From assembly GCA_030835305.1 (NCBI GenBank), contig JAURPJ010000071.1, positions 1-64,000 of the forward strand: 64,000 bases of DNA, given 5' to 3'. Origin of the DNA: Verrucomicrobiota bacterium. Its GTDB lineage: Bacteria > Verrucomicrobiota > Verrucomicrobiia > Verrucomicrobiales > Akkermansiaceae. A model generated the notes under the pieces. It had not been told where the DNA came from. It saw only the letters and a program-made list of their open reading frames with translations, and ran no database searches. The position numbers and the translations under genes were made by a program. The first letter of the stretch is position 1. Every line of letters starts with the position of its first letter. Shown piece by piece: positions 35,626 through 64,000 of the stretch.

Positions 35626-38600
35626 AGATGAATTCCTTGGAGTTAAAGAGAGCGTGGGTGAGATCGGCGAGCGGAGCAGAGGGTCGAGAGCCGCGTTTCG
35701 ATTCGCTCTGCCTTTTGTGCAGAATTCCGATCATCTCCTCGGCCTTCTTCAATTCCGCCCGCTGGTTCGCATTGAGAAGGTTTAGGATTTCATCGCGGGA
35801 GGGAGGCATCTCCATTCCCAGACTTTCGCCCACCTCCTTTGCCGAAAGGGCGCGATCATAAAGGCGGGCTTCAAAGATCTGACCGGCAAGCAATCTTCCT
35901 CCCGAAGGGGAGCCGTGCCGATTCCCGATGAGAACCTGAGCCTCTCCTTTTTTGAAACCCATCGAACCAGCTTTTCGATAAGCGCGACCGTAATAGGTCG
36001 CATTGCGATACACCTGAAGAGTGCCATCACCTGAATAAGTGATGGTGACCCACACCGGTTGGTTGTCGGCTTCGGTTTCGCGCGGCCCACCCGGGCTTTG
36101 CGTTCTCCGATGAAACTCGCTTCCAGGCAGCCATTGACCCGATTCAGTTTCGGCATAGACGATGGTGTCGAAGGTAGCTCCATCGAGAGTCTGGACCCCC
36201 AACGCCCCGCCCCCCTTTTGCTGGAGATTGTCAAGCTGCACGAGGACCTGCAGGGTCTTCTCGCTCAGATCCCGATCAAGCGGCACGCTGGTAAAGTAGC
36301 CCTGCTTCCGTCCCACTCTGAGGGCACCATTTTTTATCTCGGCCCCGCCGTGCAGCTTCCCGTGAAGCCCACCAAGGCTGTCCGTGGCATCCTTCTCAAA
36401 GCCCCATCGCGCCATCGGGGTGGGCACGTTTTTGGGAGCGGACACTTTTTGCGGCTTCAGCTTTGAGCGGGCCTCCGATTCCAATTCGTTGATCCTCGCT
36501 TGCGTTTTCTGAATCTCCTTCTCCAAGTTCCCATGACTTTCATTCGTCACCGCACGTTTCTTTTCCATCGCCGCTATGAAGGCTTTGATGTCTTTCATCT
36601 CGTCCGGGGACGGCTTCCGGGAAAAGGCCAGTTCATAGGCTTGGATCACCTTTTCCGCCATGGTCTCTCCCTGAAGCCGTCCGGCCCACTGCTCAGCGAG
36701 GCCAATCACCCAATCGGAATTCAGCATCGTCAGCGATTGCGCGGGAACGTTGGTTTCGTCACGACGCCCCTTGCCACCGAGTGGCACTGGTGCGTTGAAG
36801 GTTTGTAAAAAAGGATCGAGACGGTTCCGCTGTGTCCGTACATAGACGCTGCGTCGTCGGCTCTTCCCGTCCACCGTATCCCCGAACATCGATTGATCCA
36901 GCGATCCGGACACCGTAATCAAGGCATCGCGAATGGCTTCGGCCTCAAGACGCCGAAGGGAAAAGTGAGAAAGCAGTCGATTATCGGGGTCCCTCTCCCT
37001 TGCTAGCGAATCTGGCTTACTGGAACGCTGCCAAGCTCCGGTCAGAACAAGTTCGCGGATGAGCATTTTAATATCCCATCCCCCTTCCCTGAATCCACTC
37101 GCGAGATAGTCGAGCAACTCCGGGTGACTGGGCTTCTCTCCAAGGCGTCCAAAGTTATCTGTCGTCCGCACCAATCCGGAGCCGAACAGGTGATGCCACA
37201 CACGATTTACAAAAACCCGCGAGGTGAACGGATTGTCTTCTCTCAAAAAATCCCGGGCGAGCTCAAGACGCCCACTGTTTGGCTCCTGGTAGGGCGTCTT
37301 GTCGATCACTTCAAGAAAGCGCCTCTTCACCAAATGAGCCGGCTTCATATGATTACCCCGCTCATAAAACTCCTGATCGTGAGCGTCTGCCTCCCAAACC
37401 CCCGGCGCACGTACAGGCACTGCAAGTGATTGCTCCAGCTTGCGAAACTCCGTGAGCAGGGCACCACCAATCTTGGCCTTGTTTGGCAGAACTCCAAACT
37501 GTAAAAGCTCATCAAGCATCGTCGCTTGTTCGTCGCGCAACTCATCCCTGCTCCATGCATGCAAAGCCTCGAGCGCAAGCCGGTTAAAGAAGTCCGTGAG
37601 AGTATCGCCATCACGATGGCTTTCGCGCAGAAACTTCTTCATCTTTGCGACTTCCTGATCGGCAGGATTCACACTTCCTTTCCTGGTGACCACTGCCCTT
37701 GAAATACCGAACCACGATCGCTCATCATTCTTGGCCAGGATAGGCTGATCACGGGCCGTGCTTAGCTCGAGATGAATGCGATCGCCTTTCCAGTAATCCA
37801 GGTTGTGGCGGATCCACCTCCACTTTCCGCTCTTCAGATCCGTCGAGGGAAAGACCGTGCCGTTGCGGGGATAGTTTTGCACCGAGTAGCGCACCACCGC
37901 GTTTCCACTGCCACGGACCCTCATCCAAACTTCTTCGTCGCCTTCAAGCTCGATGCGCGGTGAGATCGCGACACCACGATCCTTGTCGCTGAGTTCGTTT
38001 GAAAAGATTCCCGAAGGATAGATCGCCGACAACAAGGACCCACCTCCTGACGCAATCGCGAAACTCCCACTCCCGACCCCGACCCCGCCGGCGGTCCCCT
38101 CTCCGTGTCGCGTCCACCGGGCAAGGTCGCGACCGCTCCACTGATACCGTGCTTTCCCGCCTGCGCCATTACTCTCCTTGCCGAGGTATGCCGCCATATC
38201 CCTGCGCCCGTCATCCCAAGTCCGCAAAAAAAGAAATTCATTCTTCTGGTTGCCGTCTTTGAAGAGAGTCTCCTGGGATTGCAAAAATTGCTCGCTCCAC
38301 TTTGGCTGGTCGAGAAGCCACTTCTTCAGAAGGACTTGCTTCAACTGCAACTTGAGTTCCGTCATCTTAGAGCGGATCCCTCTTTCATCCACCGCATCAA
38401 CTCGAACCACCCCGGGTTTGGTCGATCCAAAGATCCCAAATATTGCGTAGTAGTCTTCCTGACTAATGGCATCGAATTTATGATTGTGGCATCGGGCACA
38501 AGACACCGTGAGCCCTTGAAAAGCTTTCGTAACGACATTGACCTGATCATCAGTGAAGCGAACTTTCTCATCGAGCGCATCGGTCGGAGCAAAGCCGTGA

Positions 38601-39541
38601 AAGACCATCCTGAGATGAGCTGCTCCCAGCGCCGACTCATTGATGCCATTCTTAAGGCGGGGCTTCTTCAAAAGATCACCGGCAATGTGTTCGGTGACCA
38701 AGGTATCGTAGGGCACGTTATCATTAAGAGCGCGAATCAGGTAATCACGATATCGCCAGGAATCACGAATAGCGGGATCCCCCTCGCTGCCGTGCGAGTC
38801 AGCATAGCGAATCCAATCCATCCAATGCCGCGCCCAGCGCTCGCCGAATTGTGGTGAGCTTAAAAATTCATCCACCAATATTTCCCAACGATTTGCCCTC
38901 GTATCGGCGAGGTAACGATTCACCTCCACCACAGTGGGCGGCAGCCCCCGCAGCGCAAAGCTGAGACGCCGAACCAAGGCCCGATCGTCAGCGCGCTCCG
39001 CCTTCTTTAAGCCAGCCTCTTCCATCTTGACCTGCAAAAATCGGTCAACCGGATCCCCCTCACCCTTGGGAGGCTCGACACCACGAATGGGCTGAAAACT
39101 CCACCACTGCTTTCGACGCTCCATCACCTGCTCCCAACTGCTGTCTTCTGCAACTTCCTCGTCCGATGGGGGCTCATCACGAGGATCCGGCGCACCCATC
39201 GCGATCCATTTGATAAAGTCGGTGACGACGCGCTCGTCCAACTTCGCCCCGTCCTTGGGCATCTCCATGCCTTTTTCCTCATGACGAAGCACCTTGATCA
39301 AATAGCTTTCTTCCGGATTTTTGAAATCGAAGAGGTCTTCGCTTTCGCCACCCTCCAACATGGCAGCCCGATGATCCAGCGCCAGCCCTCCCCTTTGTTT
39401 CCCACCCGTGCGGTGGCATTCGTAACAATCCTGCGCGAGAATCGGGCGAATCCGCTTCTCAAAAAACTCGATCTTCTCGGGCTCACCCGGATCAGCACAT
39501 GCCAAGTCTGTGAGAAGCGGTAGTAATATCCATCGAATCAC
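35615..39541 (-). CDS. PSCyt1-DUF1549-DUF1553 surface cytochrome protein with LamG-like insert
   Basis: 1308 residues with a short signal (1-16). PSCyt1 has heme motif CYECH at 39-43 and a likely Met in [14 protein letters not shown]1549/PSCyt2 follows ([43 protein letters not shown]) with [10 protein letters not shown] as a second heme-binding motif. After a long beta-rich middle section, DUF1553/PSD1 runs through [36 protein letters not shown] and [11 protein letters not shown] coiled coil and a LamG-like domain ([13 protein letters not shown] to [11 protein letters not shown]) are then inserted before the family's normal C-terminal tail ([15 protein letters not shown]). It overlaps the DUF1501 gene by 11 bases. 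Role: unassigned envelope redox protein. Confidence 0.93.
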
Positions 39542-54423: not shown

Positions 54424-57400
54424 ATGATATTTTGGCGAACACTCATCCTCGGCGGACTTCTGGCACATACGACCTCTCTGACTTTTGCCGCTACAAGAGC
54501 CGAACTCACCCAACAAAGAATCGCTGAAAATCCGAAACTCAGCTGGTGGGACGCCATGGACACCGGTCCCTTCATTAGTGACACTTTCCTCGGCTTCGGG
54601 CCCAAAGGCGATGTGGCCGTGCTCAAGGGCATCGCCATCAAGATCGGCGAAAATGAAGATCACACCGTTGTCTTCGACACCGAAACCCTCCGCATGGTCG
54701 CAGGCTTCAAAGGAAGGGTCATGCATGAAGGCACCCCGTGGAGTGGCAGGCACAGTGATAATTCCTATTTGCCCGAAGGCCGGAAGGACTACTTTTTCGC
54801 CACCACCAAAGGCCCCGGCATTGCCGTCAATGGCAACTGGAAAGATCCCCGCGAAACCAAAAACGGCCCGCTCCCCGATTCCCACGGTGAGTATCACGGA
54901 CTTTACCGACATAAGACCGGGACCATTCTTAGCTATTCAATCGGAGAAGCCAAATTTCTCGAAATGCCCAAGCTTTTCGGCAACACGCTGATTCGCTCTT
55001 TTGAATTCAAGACTCTCGTGAACGATGTCGAAATCCTTGCTCTTGACCCTTTGCAAGGCGGACAAAATATTGAGGTGAAACTTTCGAACGCGTCAAGAGA
55101 CGTCGTGCTTAAAACCCTGCCCTCCGGCCGTATCGTCGTCTCGCTAACCACAGGCGCATCCGGATCATTCCAACTCGCATACGCTCCCAAGGGCGCAAGC
55201 ATCTTGATCGAGAAGCGCGGCCCCATCTCGAATTACACCAAAGGTGGCCCTTCCCTTTTTCCGGAAATCATCAAAGTCAAAGGCCGCACCAGCAAGGATG
55301 ACAAGGGTTACGTTGTCGATGACATCCCTCTCCCAAAGGATAACCCATGGGAATCCAACATCCGCTTCGGTGCCTTCGATTTTTTCTCCGATGGCAAACG
55401 CGCGGCCTGCTCGACCTGGAACGGTGACGTCTGGATCGCCGAAGGCATCGACGGCGACCTCTCCGAGATCACCTGGCGACGATTCGCGAGCGGACTCTAC
55501 CAAACCCTCGGCCTGAAAATTGTCGATGACGTCATTTACACTCATGGCCGGGACCAAATCACCCGACTTCACGATCTCAACAACGACGGCGAGGCTGACT
55601 TCTATGAGAGCTTTAACAACGACGTCCTTATCACGCCCGGATTCCACGAGTTCGCCTTCGACCTCCAAACCGACAAAGAAGGTAATTTCTACTTCAGCAA
55701 AGGCGCTCCCGTCCTTTCCGGCGGGCGCGGATTCTCCGATCTCACCGAGCACAATGGCACCATCCTGAAAATCAGCGCCGATGGAAAAACCCTCACCCGC
55801 ATGGCTTGGGGATTACGCGCACCCGGTGGCGTCGGCATTGGACCCAATGGTGAAATGACCACCGGTGAGAACGAGGGCAGCTACGTTCCCCGTTGTAAAA
55901 TCACCTGGAGCAAGCCAGACGGCAGCAGCTTCCACGGGGTTGTTCCCAGCGAGTGGGATAACAAGAAATTCGTCCGCAATCTCCCCGGCATGCCCACCGA
56001 CTACGAGCGCCCGCTTTGCTGGCTTCCCTACTACGTCGACAATTCCAGCGGGAGCCAGTTTTGGGTTCCCGACAACAGCTCCTGGAAAAACCACGCCGGA
56101 AACATGCTCCACCTTTCCTATGGCAAGAGCTCGATCTATCGCACCTTGATTGACGAGGTCGACGGCCAGGTTCAGGGGGGCGTTTACCGCCTCCCCATCG
56201 AACTCACCACTGCCAACATGCGCGGCCGCTTCCACCCGGGGTCAGGCCACCTTTACATCATCGGATTCCGCGGTTGGCAGACCAATGGAGGTACCGGCTT
56301 CCAGCGCATTCGCTTTGTCTCGGATGAGAAGCCCGTCCCCCTCAAACTGGAGGCCTTCGAAAACGGAATCCGTGTCGAGTTCAGCTCCAGCCTCGATCCC
56401 GAAGTCGCGAAAGACCCTCGCCGCTACAAGATCAGCAAGTGGGATTACGTCTGGGGACCGCAGTATGGTTCCGGCCGCTTCTCCATCGATGAACAAGATT
56501 CCGCCGCCCGCGCCCAAGCTCTCGTCGAGCCTTCGAAAGGGTCCGTCAATCAGGTCGACTCCGTCGATGTCCGCGCCGCCCAGCTTCTTGAAGATGGCAA
56601 GTCGGTCTTCCTATACATTCCTAGAATGACTCCCGCCATGCAGATGGAAATCCGCCTTGATCTCGCCGACGCCGGCAAGAAGGAATTCAAAGAAACAATT
56701 TGGAACACCATCCACAATCTACGCCCGGCCTTCGACGACCATGGCCTCGATCTCGCCAATCTTCCCGTCATCAAAAAGGAAGCACGCGGCGAACCCGGCC
56801 TTCTCCTCACCACCTCAAAGGGAAGCGCCGATGACGCGACCGTCGTGGACCGCCTCGCCCTGACCGTCGAGGAACGCAAAGCCGTTTCCGTCTTCATTGG
56901 AACCAACCAAGCCGTTTTCGAAGGAAGCCTGATCGTCGATGCGCGCGACCAACGCGCTTTCCGGCTCGAAGGCAATGGCTGGGCCAGCCTCAAGATCAAC
57001 GGCAAGCAGGTGATGGAAGGAGACCTCCCTCTCGAGTGCCCTCCCCTCGCTCTCGAATCCGGCCCGCAAGCCATCTTCTGCCACTTCAAGGGAGCCGAAA
57101 AAGGAACGAGCAGTATTCGCCTTCTTTGGAGCGGTTCTGCATTCGTTTGGGAACCGGTCAAACCCTCCGCCTATCGCCACACCGCCAACTCCATGCTCGG
57201 CAAAAAAGACAAGGCCCGCGCCGGACGCAATCTCTTCGCCGCCGCCAACTGCATCAAATGCCACACCGCAGATAAGAATCACTTTAAGTCCGAAAGAATG
57301 CCCGAGCTTTTTGAAACGCTGCCAGACTTCAAAAATGCCGGGCACCGTTACCATGCCGGGTGGGTGGAGCAGTGGATCCGCAAACCCAATGATCACTGCC

Positions 57401-58581
57401 CGACTGTAGCGCCCGACCACGCCGCCGACATCGCGGCATACCTTGCCACCAGAAAAATGAAAACATCCGCCGGGGATGAAGGGAACGCCGAAAGCGGAGC
57501 CCGACTCATCGAAGAACTTCACCTCGGACCTTGGGCCGATGAACTTGCCAAGTCCGGCAAATTCACCCCGACCGGACTGCGCATCTTGCTGCTCAATCCA
57601 GCTCAACACCATCGGCACACCACCTTCCCCGACCTTCGTCTCACACCACGGGAAGCCGCCAACATCGCCAGCGCCATCGTTTCACGGGCCACCAAGACTC
57701 CCGTTCCCTCCGGCGGAGATTCCGTAAAAGGAAAACAAGTCTTCTCTCAACGCTGCGCCACTTGTCACGAGCCCGGCAAAGGCGTGAAATACGAGTTCGC
57801 CGCCAAAAATCTGAAAGACATGTGGAACACCGAATGGTTTGAGCACGGCTGCCTCTCCGAAGAAGAAGGCAACGCTCCCGAACTCGGCCTTGGCATCGAC
57901 CAAAAGCAAGCCCTCTTCGCCTTCAAGAACATCGATGGCAATAGAAACTACACTTCGCTTCGCCGCTTCGTTCCTCACGAATATGCCACACGAGCCATCG
58001 AACGATTGCAATGCGCCAGCTGCCACTCCGGCGAAAACAAGCTGCCCGAAATCTCGCTCGCCGGAGAAAAATTCCACAGCGATTGGCTCAATACCCTCCT
58101 CAAAGGAGAAGGGCTCAAAGTCCGGCCATGGCTCCATGCCCGCATGCCAGGCTTCTCCGCACATGCCGATGCCTTGAGCAAAGGCCTCGCCTTCCGAGCC
58201 GGCATGGACCTCTCATCCTCCGACTTTGGAGTGACGCCAGACCTTGTGAAGACCGGCATGGCACTTACCGGACCCGGTGGCTACGCCTGCATCGCCTGTC
58301 ACGCTGCCGGTGAAACTCCCGCCCTGCAAGCCTTCGAAGGACAAGGCCCCAACTTGCAAATCGCCAGCGACCGCCTCCGCCCGGATTACTACCGCACCTG
58401 GATGTTCTGGCCACAACGCCACGCCCCGCTGACCATCATGCCCAAGTACACCGTCGACAAAAAGAAGGCCCTAAACCCAACCTTCTATCGGGGCGATGCC
58501 GACAAACAGTTCGAAGCCATTCGCCACTACCTCCAAACTCTGGAAGGTGCCGAAAGAGCACCTATGCCCGAGAAGGAATAG
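54424..58581 (+). CDS. large DUF6797-type propeller protein with four c-type heme motifs
   Basis: 1385 residues with a signal peptide (1-21). The N-terminal part (to about 290) is the DUF6797-type region (LSWWDAMDTGPFISDTF, GTPWSGRHSDNSYLP). A beta-propeller follows (RFGAFDFFSDGKRAACSTW; GVGIGPNGEMTTGENEGSYV), then a PA14-like or beta-sandwich domain (about 800-925). The C-terminal third carries four heme motifs: CIKCH 943-947, CATCH 1111-1115, CASCH 1197-1201 and CIACH 1289-1293. This organisation suggests substrate oxidation in the propeller with electrons passed along a heme chain, in the periplasm or at the surface. The substrate is unknown. It converges with the HtrA-like gene across a terminator. 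Confidence 0.88.
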   Translation: MIFWRTLILGGLLAHTTSLTFAATRAELTQQRIAENPKLSWWDAMDTGPFISDTFLGFGPKGDVAVLKGIAIKIGENEDHTVVFDTETLRMVAGFKGRVMHEGTPWSGRHSDNSYLPEGRKDYFFATTKGPGIAVNGNWKDPRETKNGPLPDSHGEYHGLYRHKTGTILSYSIGEAKFLEMPKLFGNTLIRSFEFKTLVNDVEILALDPLQGGQNIEVKLSNASRDVVLKTLPSGRIVVSLTTGASGSFQLAYAPKGASILIEKRGPISNYTKGGPSLFPEIIKVKGRTSKDDKGYVVDDIPLPKDNPWESNIRFGAFDFFSDGKRAACSTWNGDVWIAEGIDGDLSEITWRRFASGLYQTLGLKIVDDVIYTHGRDQITRLHDLNNDGEADFYESFNNDVLITPGFHEFAFDLQTDKEGNFYFSKGAPVLSGGRGFSDLTEHNGTILKISADGKTLTRMAWGLRAPGGVGIGPNGEMTTGENEGSYVPRCKITWSKPDGSSFHGVVPSEWDNKKFVRNLPGMPTDYERPLCWLPYYVDNSSGSQFWVPDNSSWKNHAGNMLHLSYGKSSIYRTLIDEVDGQVQGGVYRLPIELTTANMRGRFHPGSGHLYIIGFRGWQTNGGTGFQRIRFVSDEKPVPLKLEAFENGIRVEFSSSLDPEVAKDPRRYKISKWDYVWGPQYGSGRFSIDEQDSAARAQALVEPSKGSVNQVDSVDVRAAQLLEDGKSVFLYIPRMTPAMQMEIRLDLADAGKKEFKETIWNTIHNLRPAFDDHGLDLANLPVIKKEARGEPGLLLTTSKGSADDATVVDRLALTVEERKAVSVFIGTNQAVFEGSLIVDARDQRAFRLEGNGWASLKINGKQVMEGDLPLECPPLALESGPQAIFCHFKGAEKGTSSIRLLWSGSAFVWEPVKPSAYRHTANSMLGKKDKARAGRNLFAAANCIKCHTADKNHFKSERMPELFETLPDFKNAGHRYHAGWVEQWIRKPNDHCPTVAPDHAADIAAYLATRKMKTSAGDEGNAESGARLIEELHLGPWADELAKSGKFTPTGLRILLLNPAQHHRHTTFPDLRLTPREAANIASAIVSRATKTPVPSGGDSVKGKQVFSQRCATCHEPGKGVKYEFAAKNLKDMWNTEWFEHGCLSEEEGNAPELGLGIDQKQALFAFKNIDGNRNYTSLRRFVPHEYATRAIERLQCASCHSGENKLPEISLAGEKFHSDWLNTLLKGEGLKVRPWLHARMPGFSAHADALSKGLAFRAGMDLSSSDFGVTPDLVKTGMALTGPGGYACIACHAAGETPALQAFEGQGPNLQIASDRLRPDYYRTWMFWPQRHAPLTIMPKYTVDKKKALNPTFYRGDADKQFEAIRHYLQTLEGAERAPMPEKE

Positions 58582-58651: not shown

Positions 58652-60988
58652 TTAGCGAACCGACTCTTCCAACTGCTCAAGGCGGCTTTCGATTTGCTTC
58701 ATGCTCTCTCGAATCGCCTTGATCGCTTCCAGCGTTTCCTTCTTCGAAGGGGCTGGCTTCGACGCCATCTTGAATTGTGGTTTTGGTGCCACTTTTATTT
58801 TGAGTAACTCAACGATCTCGTCAGCCGGGATGGCGTAAGTCTTGGTGCGTCCGGCCCGGGAAACATTCACTCCGACGCACTTTCCTTTGAGGTTAAAGAG
58901 CGGACCACCGCAGAACTCCGGAGGAAGTGGAATGTCGTGCTGGATCACGTCGGGATACCCTCCGGTTTTTTCCGAGAGACGTCCAAGCGAGCGCTTCATG
59001 CGGGGGTCATTCTGGACATTGTCGCGCATCTTCCGCTCTTTCAAAGTCACCTTTGATTCGGCCGACTTACCCTCACGGAGATAACCAACTTTGACCTCCT
59101 CGCCAGCCTTGCATCCACGGATCAAGCCTCCAAACGAAATAGGATCTTCCACCTTTTCACCATTGAGGCTGGTGATGATATCACCCTCCTTCAAACCTGC
59201 CTCGCTCGCCGCCCCATCCGGGACAAGACGGGCAATCAACACTCCCCCATCGCCTTCACTGGCTTGAATTCCGATGAACCCCACCTCAGCCATGGCGCGA
59301 CCGGGAACGCTGAGAAGACCAATTCCGAGAGGCTCGTTCGCTACTCCACTTGCGGTGAGGATAGAACCAAGGGCGGGCTCTTCGACCTGAAAACGAACCG
59401 GACGGAGGTTCGTGGCCTCAATCTTCAACAAAGCCAGGTCCCGCTGGGGAAAGCGTTTCAAAACTTTCGCATCGTAGTCTTTTCCTCCGAGTTTTACCGC
59501 CAACTTACCTTCATCGGTTTCAGCATTCTTGGTAAGAATTTTTCCATTGGCCGAAACCACAGTGCCAAGAACCGCAGGCTTTCCATCAACCGTAACCAGC
59601 GCGGTGACGCCGGGGTTTCTTTTCATCACCGGCTCCAGTGCCTTGAGGGATGACGCGAAAAATTCATCAACACCGCCTCCCATCGATCCCGGTGCGATTT
59701 GGCCACCGCGTTTCTGAAGTTCTTCCATCAGCTTCTCCATTCCACCCATCTTCTCAATCAAGTCGGGAGTGAGCTCCAGACGACCGCCATTCTTGGCCGC
59801 ATCCTTGAGCAACTTTTCCAGAGAAGGCAGTTTATCATCCTTCTTCTCAGGCTCTTGTTTGGTCCCAGGCTTATCTTCCTTGGGAGTCGGTTTGGCAGGC
59901 TTTGTCTCTTTGGGGTCCTTCGTCTTTGGCTCTTCTTTTTTAGATTGCGGCTTTTCTTTCTTTGGCTTCTCCGGGGGCTCCATCAAGTCCTTCAATTTGA
60001 TTAATTTGGCCTTGGCGGATTTCTCCTCGCCACCTCGTTTGTAAACTAAGTCCACCTCTTGCCCGGCCTTGCGCATCCCAACCAGCTGAATCAGATCGGC
60101 TGGCTCCGAGACTTTTTTCCCATTCACCTCGACAATGAGATCACCGCCTTTCAGGCCGGCTTTTTCGGCCGGAGAATTCGGAACAACCTCCGTCACCGTG
60201 ACACCCCCCTCACCGTCACCCAACTGAACCCCAAGCATCGGGCGCTCCGGCGATTGAACTGGCTGAGGTGCGTTGTTGAAGCGTTCTCCGCTCATTTTCC
60301 CACTCTTCAATTTCTCCCATTGATTGCGAAACACATCGATAGGCACGTGGCGATTCTCACTCAGGGTCATGCCAATATTGGAATGAATGCCAATAACACG
60401 CCCTTGCACGTCAAAAAGTGGTCCCCCCGAATCACCGCCAACCACGGCGGTGTCCGTGACCACAAAACCATCGTTTGCCAGCACGCGCCCCAAACGAACG
60501 GGAGGCCTGCGCATTGGATCAAAGCCACCCGAGTGACCGAGCGCCACCGTCCACTGGTTTCGTTTCAGGCCCTTGCTCTCTCCGATCGGAACGAAGGGAT
60601 ACTTGCCTTCATCAGTGATTCGAACCATCGCCGCATCGCGATCATAGTCAGCTCCAAGAATTTCCCCAGCCTTCCTACTACCGTCAGGAAAGATGACGAT
60701 CACGCCACCCGGCATGCTGGAAGTGACATGAGCTGCGGTCAAAATGAGACCCTCTTCATTCACGATGACTCCACTTCCGGAGCCCCTTCCGTTTTTGGCA
60801 ACGAGGCAAACAGTCGCAGGTTGTGCCTGCCCGGAAAGTGCGACGATCTGGCGATCGAGCTTTTGGAGCTCCTTGAAATTCTTCACATTAGGAGCCGCTT
60901 TCATCTCCGTCTCTTGCGCCCAAATTGGCATGGTAGCCAGCGACAGAGAGGTGAGGAGAGTGCCTATTAATTTGATCGATTTCTTCAT
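58652..60988 (-). CDS. HtrA-like double serine protease with two PDZ domains and Lys/Pro-rich linker
   Basis: 778 residues with a signal peptide (1-25). The first protease domain (about 45-240) is complete: LTAAH with His87, DRDAA with Asp118, GGDSGGP with Ser187. PDZ1 follows (250-330), then a very charged Lys/Pro/Glu linker (335-390). A second protease-like domain starts near 460: its His position reads LTKNAET, Asp517 remains in QRDLALL, and the nucleophile position is EFCGGPL with Cys693 instead of Ser. PDZ2 (about 567-650) is inserted within this second domain. A helical tail ends the protein. The second half is a pseudoprotease. It is probably a periplasmic quality-control enzyme. Confidence 0.88.
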   Translation of the reverse strand: MKKSIKLIGTLLTSLSLATMPIWAQETEMKAAPNVKNFKELQKLDRQIVALSGQAQPATVCLVAKNGRGSGSGVIVNEEGLILTAAHVTSSMPGGVIVIFPDGSRKAGEILGADYDRDAAMVRITDEGKYPFVPIGESKGLKRNQWTVALGHSGGFDPMRRPPVRLGRVLANDGFVVTDTAVVGGDSGGPLFDVQGRVIGIHSNIGMTLSENRHVPIDVFRNQWEKLKSGKMSGERFNNAPQPVQSPERPMLGVQLGDGEGGVTVTEVVPNSPAEKAGLKGGDLIVEVNGKKVSEPADLIQLVGMRKAGQEVDLVYKRGGEEKSAKAKLIKLKDLMEPPEKPKKEKPQSKKEEPKTKDPKETKPAKPTPKEDKPGTKQEPEKKDDKLPSLEKLLKDAAKNGGRLELTPDLIEKMGGMEKLMEELQKRGGQIAPGSMGGGVDEFFASSLKALEPVMKRNPGVTALVTVDGKPAVLGTVVSANGKILTKNAETDEGKLAVKLGGKDYDAKVLKRFPQRDLALLKIEATNLRPVRFQVEEPALGSILTASGVANEPLGIGLLSVPGRAMAEVGFIGIQASEGDGGVLIARLVPDGAASEAGLKEGDIITSLNGEKVEDPISFGGLIRGCKAGEEVKVGYLREGKSAESKVTLKERKMRDNVQNDPRMKRSLGRLSEKTGGYPDVIQHDIPLPPEFCGGPLFNLKGKCVGVNVSRAGRTKTYAIPADEIVELLKIKVAPKPQFKMASKPAPSKKETLEAIKAIRESMKQIESRLEQLEESVR

Positions 60989-61858: not shown

Positions 61859-64000
61859 ATGCGTCTCTTCCCAACTCTCCCGATCATCTCTCTCCTTGGC
61901 CTTCCTGGCAATGCTGCTGAAGCATCAGTGAAACCCGTCAGCTTCTATCAGGACATTCGTCCCATTTTTCAGGCAAACTGTGTCGGTTGTCACCAACCCT
62001 CCAAGGACAATGGCGACTACGTCATGACCGATTTCAAGCGCCTCCTCGCCGGAGGTGAAGAGGCGGTCGCCATCGTCCCGGGCAAACCGGATGAAAGCTA
62101 CCTCATCGAGGAAATCACCCCGGACAAACACGGCGATGCCGAGATGCCAAAAAAGGACGATCCACTTCACGAAATTGAGATCGCCTTGGTCCGCCGCTGG
62201 ATTCAGGAAGGAGCCAAAGATGACACTCCTGAAAATGCCCGGCAGCGATACGATCAGGATCATCCGCCTGTCTACACCAAGCCCCCCGTCATTACCTCGC
62301 TCGACTATTCCCCCGACGGCTCCCTTATCGCCATCTCGGGCTTCCATGAAGTCCTCCTTCAAAAAGCAGACGGCTCCGGGGAAGTGGCTCGCTTGGTCGG
62401 ACTCTCCGAGCGCATTGAATCGGTTCGCTTTTCCCCCGATGGCAAAAAGCTCGCCGTCACCGGAGGCCTGCCCGGACGCATGGGCGAGGTGCAAGTCTGG
62501 GACGTTACCAAAAAGAAGCTCACTCTTTCCGCTCCCGTGACCTTTGACACTGTTTATGGGGCTGCCTGGTCGCCTGATGGCACCAAAATTTCCTTCGGCT
62601 GCTCCGACAACAGCGTGCGCGCAATTGATGCCAAGACCGGAAAACAAGTTCTCTTTCAAGGAGGCCACAACGACTGGGTCTTCGACACCGCCTTCAACCC
62701 AAAAGGCGATCACGTCGTTTCCGTAAGCCGTGACATGACCGCCAAGCTCACCGAACTGGCGACCCAACGGCTCATCGACAATATCACCTCCATCACCCCG
62801 AATGCCCTGAAAGGAGGCATGGCCGCAGTAGTCATGCACCCCACGCGCGATGAAATTGTGGTCGGCGGTTCTGACGGAGTGCCCAAGCTCTACCGCATCT
62901 TCCGCAACACGGCCCGCAAGATTGGAGATGACGCCAATCTCCTCCTCGAATTTCCGCCTCTCAAAGGCCGGGTCTTCGCAGTCGATATTTCCAAAGACGC
63001 TAAACGCATCGCCGCCGGAAGCAGCCTGAATGGCAAAGGGGCGATCCACATTTATGAAGTCGATCCCGAAGCTCAGATTCCGAATGACATCGCGGCCATT
63101 ATCAAGCAGCCAACCCACCAGCGGAATGCCGAGATGAAGGCGAAGCTCAGGAAGCATTTCGAGACCAGCATCAAAACACTCGCCACCGTCCCGGTGCCAG
63201 AATGCGGCATCTTCGCGGTCTCCTTTAATCCCGACGGATCACAAGTCGCCGCCTCCGGCCCCGATGGCATGGTTCGTATTGTCGATGTTTCAGCAGGCAC
63301 GATTTCCAAAAGTTTCCTCCCCGTCACCATCACCCCGGAAGCTAAAATCGTCGAAAAGACTTCCGGCAATACGCGGACCCTCGATAAACGAAAGCCCCTC
63401 GATTCCGAAAAAATTCCGGAAGGCCGTTCGGTCGTCAAACTCAGTGTCGTTCCGGCTGACGCGATCAGGATCGACAATGCCTACCGTTACGCCCAGGTCA
63501 TCGTCTCAGCTCAACTCGATTCCGGCGACGTGATTGACGTGACCCGGATTGCAAAAAAAACTCTCCGGAACGACAAGGCCACCATTTCCGAAACCGGCAT
63601 CGTTCGTGGCGTATCGAATGGCACCAGCGCGATCGATTTTAGCCTCGCCGGTCGCAAGACATCCATTCCCGTCGAGGTCACCGGTCTGAACCAAAAATAC
63701 CTTCCCGCGTGGACCAAGGACGTCAATCCCGTCGTTGCCCGCATGGGTTGCAACGCCGGAACCTGCCATGGGGCCAAGGACGGAAAGAACGGCTTCAAGC
63801 TCTCGCTCCGCGGCTACGATCCACTTTACGACGTCCGCGCCTTCACCGATGACATTTCCTCGCGCCGCGTCAACCTGGCCTCGCCCGATGACAGCCTCAT
63901 GCTGCTCAAGGCCACCTCCGCCGTGCCGCACGAAGGAGGGCAACTCACCAAACCCGGCGATGACTACTATGAAATTATCCGCGCCTGGATTGCCCACGGA
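61859..64000 (+). CDS. PSCyt1-WD40-Ig-PSCyt2 surface cytochrome protein (C-terminus beyond window)
   Basis: 714 codons are inside the window and the frame is still open at the edge. Signal peptide 1-20. PSCyt1: CVGCH at 41-45, then IVPGKPDESYL and a likely Met in AEMPKKDDPLH. WD40-like blades cover about 140-470 (ITSLDYSPDGSLIAIS, ESVRFSPDGKKLAVT, YGAAWSPDGTKISFG, AVSFNPDGSQVAAS). A bacterial Ig-like domain (about 540-620; [23 protein letters not shown]) precedes VNPVVARMGCNAGTCHGAKDG, where C631-x4-C636-H637 is the family's CX4CH variant, and GFKLSLRGYDP. DUF1549/DUF1553 would be expected beyond the edge. It is an envelope redox protein; the reaction is unknown. Confidence 0.88.
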   Translation, partial: MRLFPTLPIISLLGLPGNAAEASVKPVSFYQDIRPIFQANCVGCHQPSKDNGDYVMTDFKRLLAGGEEAVAIVPGKPDESYLIEEITPDKHGDAEMPKKDDPLHEIEIALVRRWIQEGAKDDTPENARQRYDQDHPPVYTKPPVITSLDYSPDGSLIAISGFHEVLLQKADGSGEVARLVGLSERIESVRFSPDGKKLAVTGGLPGRMGEVQVWDVTKKKLTLSAPVTFDTVYGAAWSPDGTKISFGCSDNSVRAIDAKTGKQVLFQGGHNDWVFDTAFNPKGDHVVSVSRDMTAKLTELATQRLIDNITSITPNALKGGMAAVVMHPTRDEIVVGGSDGVPKLYRIFRNTARKIGDDANLLLEFPPLKGRVFAVDISKDAKRIAAGSSLNGKGAIHIYEVDPEAQIPNDIAAIIKQPTHQRNAEMKAKLRKHFETSIKTLATVPVPECGIFAVSFNPDGSQVAASGPDGMVRIVDVSAGTISKSFLPVTITPEAKIVEKTSGNTRTLDKRKPLDSEKIPEGRSVVKLSVVPADAIRIDNAYRYAQVIVSAQLDSGDVIDVTRIAKKTLRNDKATISETGIVRGVSNGTSAIDFSLAGRKTSIPVEVTGLNQKYLPAWTKDVNPVVARMGCNAGTCHGAKDGKNGFKLSLRGYDPLYDVRAFTDDISSRRVNLASPDDSLMLLKATSAVPHEGGQLTKPGDDYYEIIRAWIAHG

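Follow-up and report, generated by a model that had tools for sequence, protein, structure and literature searches.

A domain of some 107 residues built around a CX4CH motif lies ahead of the PSCyt2 and PSD1 domains of a 1,695-residue protein encoded in a genome of the Verrucomicrobiota (Akkermansiaceae). The wide spacing of its two cysteines is the rule of a large domain family, not the peculiarity of one protein. The domain (residues ~612-718) is probably a small bis-histidine c-type cytochrome, with its heme attached through CX4CH.

Architecture of the CX4CH protein

The stretch analysed here, referred to as the window, is 64,000 nucleotides long. The gene starts at the ATG at 61859 on the forward strand and ends at position 66946 of its contig (C53, 71,541 bases); the end of the window therefore cuts it, with residues 1-714 inside and PSCyt2 and PSD1 beyond. 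From the N-terminus, the protein is made of a probable signal peptide, PSCyt1, a WD40 region, an Ig-like stretch, the CX4CH domain, a region that is Ig-like in paralogues, PSCyt2 and PSD1. The features within the window are as follows.

61859..64000, forward strand: visible 5′ part of the gene, residues 1-714; the gene ends outside the window
61859..61918, forward strand: probable Sec signal peptide, MRLFPTLPIISLLGLPGNAA, read by eye
61979..62158, forward strand: PSCyt1 (PF07635; Pfam E 3.2e-14, over the cut-off), with CVGCH at 61979-61993, residues 41-45
62291..63073, forward strand: WD40-type beta-propeller region (PF00400, 85.2 bits, cut-off 27), its extent taken from a THOC3-propeller match below that model's own cut-off
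63578..63682, forward strand: weak Ig-like (Big-type) stretch directly before the CX4CH domain (Big-like E 0.0096, below the cut-off)
63698..64000, on to contig position 64015, forward strand: CX4CH cytochrome-like domain, residues ~612-718, from profile search and alignment
63749..63769, forward strand: CNAGTCH, residues 631-637, with C631, C636 and the putative proximal H637 (each 163/163)
63863..63868, forward strand: R669-R670 (163/163 and 160/163), propionate contacts at a guess
63929..63931, forward strand: H691 of PHEGG, invariant (163/163 aligned copies), candidate second axial ligand
63986..63988, forward strand: W710, in the last helix, invariant in the 163-copy alignment; the WI..GA ending is also found in PSCyt1

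The first-pass annotation of this DNA had described a cytochrome-WD40-Ig-PSCyt2 fusion holding CNAGTCH at residues 631-637 and a normal CVGCH elsewhere in the same protein. Counted from the ATG at 61859, both motifs are indeed there. As for the fusion, PSCyt1, WD40 and PSCyt2 all exceed their Pfam cut-offs (PSCyt2, PF07583, E 1.6e-45; PSD1, PF07587, also over its cut-off, E 3.5e-42; these last two outside the window), while the Ig-like part stays weak here; at the equivalent position, the paralogue L035 exceeds the Big_2 cut-off (E 1.6e-6). Behind the CX4CH domain L035 is again above that cut-off, where the window protein shows no match. A third heme motif, CNKCH (residues 983-987, inside PSCyt2), had gone unnoticed, as it lies past the end of the window. 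Three CXnCH motifs (n 1-15) occur in the full 1,695 residues, one of them in the CX4CH domain.

Immediately downstream come a DUF1501 gene and then two ORFs with FG-GAP repeats. Two genes upstream (54424-58581, forward strand) lies a multi-heme candidate, a 1,385-residue protein in which four CXXCH motifs (CIKCH, CATCH, CASCH and CIACH) are seen by eye; the product of 58652-60988, on the reverse strand, resembles to the eye a trypsin-like protease and includes PDZ-like stretches.

A family with a fixed wide spacing and its CXXCH relatives

From the composition of the protein, about 0.001 CX4CH motifs would be expected by chance. Searches for the domain yielded 274 distinct matches over 331 loci, these loci being part of the matches listed by the genome searches: 241 are strong (E<1e-15) and 33 weak, the weak ones mostly carrying CXXCH. 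Counting the spacing across family members, a check suggested in the first-pass annotation, gives CX4CH in 238 of the 241 strong copies, the remaining three (L122, L135 and L286) being cut or masked at the motif; none of the 238 readable copies has a changed or lost motif. The idea of a chance motif, or of an assembly or insertion error in one protein, is already refuted by this conservation. The retention of the wide spacing across so large a family makes it likely that CX4CH is a genuine heme site and did not arise by accident.

An alignment was made of 163 strong copies, selected by profile score (E<1e-15) and freedom from masked letters, and not by motif. Eleven positions never vary in it: C631, C636, H637, H691, G634, G642, D658, R669, K684, G693 and W710. 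Across 163 ORFs, which come from overlapping loci with some genes counted twice or more, the distance from the start of the domain to the PSCyt2 motif is 350-379 residues.

The source genome holds three copies of the domain, with the motifs CNAGTCH, CNGGGCH and CNTGACH. A profile of these three finds matches in 27 of a sample of 387 genomes of the phylum, and in 77 of 294 from the phylum to which Alienimonas chondri belongs, weak matches being included in both counts and some of them being CXXCH domains. In a scan of named genomes at least 467 relatives were matched and 80 loci kept, a set that leans towards CX4CH because the search patterns contained the motif. The domain is not represented by a model in Pfam or NCBIfam. 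The Pfam scan gave no PSCyt1 (PF07635) match in the window domain and, for 68 family members, no family below E 0.005, with one member touching PSCyt1 at E 0.19; NCBIfam returned nothing for the CX4CH region.

The relatives of the family were sought by profile comparison. The three-copy profile also picks up PSCyt1-type CXXCH domains (14 of 158 matches). When the family is aligned by hhalign with 122 PSCyt1 domains, which were collected from the window protein's own PSCyt1 and all contain CXXCH (122/122), the probability is 97.9% (E 4e-13, ~91 columns), and 95.05% (E 3.5e-8) once the motif and all preceding columns are removed. Against a group of CXXCH domains with an HxGG histidine it reaches 99.76% (E 1.4e-27), or 99.55% (E 2.1e-23) with the motif removed, a comparison that is partly circular, since the CX4CH profile had itself served to find this group. 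The best column shuffles (60 in each of the four tests) scored 16.8 to 21.7, whereas the real alignments scored 42.5 to 147. In the alignment, the CX4CH cysteines and the HxGG histidine fall on those of the CXXCH/HxGG group. These comparisons place the CX4CH domain among the relatives of PSCyt1, and nearer still to the CXXCH domains with the HxGG histidine. One domain of that group matched the NCBIfam model RoxC (E 3.8e-5), an assignment that was rejected, the match being far under the model cut-off of 900 bits.

The group itself is mixed: its 29 distinct domains comprise 24 with CX2CH, four with CX4CH and one with CX5CH. In L235, a 343-residue ORF of tandem cytochrome-like repeats, a repeat with CVGCH is followed directly by one with CATTGCH. 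Another ORF of tandem cytochrome-like repeats, the 323-residue L241, has CX4CH in all three, and L225 holds a related domain whose motif is of the CX5CH type (CLGTGGCH), its surroundings being otherwise similar. In a 76-row tree the window family, with 31 rows, forms a clade of its own (97/94), and the CXXCH/HxGG group encloses its four CX4CH rows (98/90 and 99/84); this tree is built on few columns, its midpoint root is for drawing only, and it comes with a long-branch warning. Read most simply, the tree would give the wide spacing two origins, which is not proof of them.

Predicted fold, proposed heme ligation and attachment

Two AlphaFold models of the domain were obtained, one from 68 CX4CH rows (pLDDT 69.4, pTM 0.64) and the other from 147 rows that include PSCyt1 domains (pLDDT 75.6, pTM 0.69). 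Both have one helix before the motif, two in mid-domain and one at the end. In the second model these lie at 9-19, 46-56, 71-76 and 93-104, an order that fits the type I cytochrome c fold; model confidence is moderate, and lowest around and after the motif. Foldseek found no match in the PDB at E<=0.001 for either model, and VIA-align found none with Z>=2 for the first model among 36 chains. Among 51 chains, the second model gave a single match with Z>=2, to residues 666-791 of hydrazine synthase (5c2v_D), with a Z of 4.9 that is in the tool's middling range.

Against PDB sequences, a mixed profile of CX4CH and PSCyt1 domains matches FoxE (E 2.4e-13) and residues 640-767 of hydrazine synthase alpha (E 8.7e-6), matches which may be due to the PSCyt1 rows. 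The profile of the CXXCH/HxGG group also reaches FoxE (7e-6) and hydrazine synthase (0.0067). The CX4CH-only profile found no cytochrome among PDB sequences, neither FoxE nor hydrazine synthase; its sole matches, designed kelch-like repeats and ribosomal L33, were rejected as chance. Taken together, the predicted structures and the PDB profiles offer concordant but weak support for a cytochrome. The matched region of hydrazine synthase is that of heme alpha-II, which passages of two papers describe as bis-histidine ligated, His689 being a ligand, with a midpoint near -330 mV and a type I cytochrome c fold around it (PMC12607021; PMC12758564).

The following mechanism may be proposed. The heme would be thioether-bonded to C631 and C636, and the iron would have H637 as axial ligand on one face and H691, of the PHxGG sequence, on the other. 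The choice of these two histidines as the axial pair follows from the alignment, in which H691 coincides with the HxGG histidine of the CXXCH domains at the place where PSCyt1 has its MPP sequence. The heme would thus be bis-histidine and, to judge from this ligation and from the comparison with hydrazine synthase, probably of low potential; PSCyt1 instead has the conserved MPP methionine, and its CVGCH would hold a second heme of a different kind. The fixed architecture and the gene order suggest that the CX4CH domain passes electrons between PSCyt2-PSD1, or a DUF1501 partner encoded by the adjacent gene, and other carriers. Covalent attachment, ligation, low potential and electron transfer are all inferred here, and the choice of redox partner and substrate is a guess.

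How would such a heme be attached? In the source genome, which is 96.89% complete, ResB and CcsA-type genes adjoin on contig C56, constituting System II, and no match to CcmE was found; attachment would for these reasons fall to System II. The genome has a second CcsA-type gene, on contig C81, which might have supplied a dedicated CX4CH synthase. This idea was set aside: the gene adjoins ORFs recognised by eye as HemA and HemC, and from these neighbours we take it to be more likely HemX. No dedicated second synthase for CX4CH was seen in the genome. According to a passage of one paper, bacterial synthases recognise only the CXXCH motif (PMC11727520), so that either the System II synthase is more tolerant here or the CX4CH site is not a c heme.

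The second branch of this alternative would make the domain a former cytochrome in which the two cysteines have been given over to a structural disulfide, the rival named in the first-pass annotation, or to a zinc or other metal site, without heme. Such a reading would agree with the failure of Foldseek to match either model, with a System II route that may refuse CX4CH (PMC11727520, in part) and with the precedent, in a passage on hydrazine synthase, of a CXXCH histidine that binds zinc and not its heme (PMC12607021). A disulfide, however, needs neither H637 nor H691, yet both are kept in 163 of 163 copies along with a cysteine spacing of exactly four, and no motif has decayed among the 238 readable ones; this outcome is rated as unlikely. 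Less probable still is a heme held by a single thioether at C636, with C631 in another role. Single-thioether c hemes exist, and four residues have to loop out between the cysteines. Against this, C631 is as invariant as C636 (163/163), and the CX4CH of cytochrome c3 supports two thioethers. The functional heme site put forward in the first-pass annotation is thus the best-supported reading, given the conserved spacing, the conserved candidate second axial histidine and the CXXCH relatives; the spacing itself is not confined to this protein, being the norm of its family.

Known systems, PSCyt2 forms and significance

Several known systems resemble parts of this arrangement. The PSCyt1 domain (PF07635) is linked to the CX4CH domain by the profile relationship, by its place ahead of PSCyt2-PSD1 and by the P..S.L and WI..GA features; it differs in having CXXCH and MPP where the window domain has CX4CH and PHxGG, and its Pfam model fails to recognise the latter. 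The C-terminal heme alpha-II domain of Kuenenia hydrazine synthase alpha (5C2V) shares the bis-histidine heme, which is predicted here, and the structural match; contrary to the window domain it has CXXCH (CAMCH in the alignment), with 16% identity and in an otherwise unrelated enzyme. Cytochrome c3 is a small protein with four hemes, two of which are bound at CXXCH, whereas the window domain has one motif in its ~107 residues and belongs to another family. The CX4CH heme motif is nevertheless common to both; it is an established heme motif, described in a passage on tetraheme cytochrome c3 as occurring there twice (PMC10454114). What is unusual here is a whole CX4CH family, in a genome with System II in which CcmE was not found.

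The protein also resembles the PSCyt2-PSD1/DUF1501 pairs of Planctomycetes and Verrucomicrobia, with PSCyt2 and PSD1 in one protein and DUF1501 next to it. In passages of two papers these gene pairs are reported as abundant and of unknown function, and PSCyt1-3 and PSD1-5 are described together with Big_2 and WD40, no CX4CH domain being mentioned in those passages (PMC5615132; PMC2754498); a role in carbohydrate metabolism is suggested for PSCyt genes generally in part of one of them (PMC5615132). Searches of open-licence full text yielded no paper describing a CX4CH domain from PVC bacteria.

PSCyt2 itself is frequent in the source genome, with 52 matches, 51 of them over the cut-off; besides that of the CX4CH protein, a copy lies within the window at 38417-39052 on the reverse strand (L033). 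Its motif takes two forms there: C..CHxHK, seen in the 30 best-scoring of the 52, and C..CH[DN]HP, found at six places. Those 30 are all of the HK form, with CX4CH in none of the stretches examined, and ORFs combining a CX4CH-like motif with a downstream C..CHxH have HP in 170 of 170 cases. By pattern search, two of the six HP copies have CX4CH (contigs C43 and C53), three have an upstream CXXCH (C17, C19 and C122) and one has neither (C11). Among the copies examined CX4CH thus goes with HP, but the converse fails, four of the six HP copies being without it, and these four rule out a strict one-to-one pairing of CX4CH with C..CHxHP PSCyt2.

A broader proposal can be advanced tentatively, with slightly less than even confidence: that the family adds to PSCyt2-type proteins a low-potential bis-histidine CX4CH heme, attached by one System II synthase that handles CXXCH sites as well; that CXXCH gave rise to the wide spacing on two or more occasions in the domain superfamily; and that the proteins bearing PSCyt1 pair a His/Met heme with the low-potential bis-histidine one as a built-in relay. 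System II organisms with this family would offer a natural test of how much variation in cysteine spacing the synthase accepts; in L235, where a CX2CH and a CX4CH repeat adjoin, the comparison is built in. Motif scans restricted to CXXCH miss the domain, as do the Pfam and NCBIfam libraries, and heme counts for the abundant PSCyt2-type proteins are for that reason too low. If a bis-histidine heme does sit beside PSCyt2-PSD1, it would give a starting point for working out the chemistry of the PSCyt2/DUF1501 pairs.
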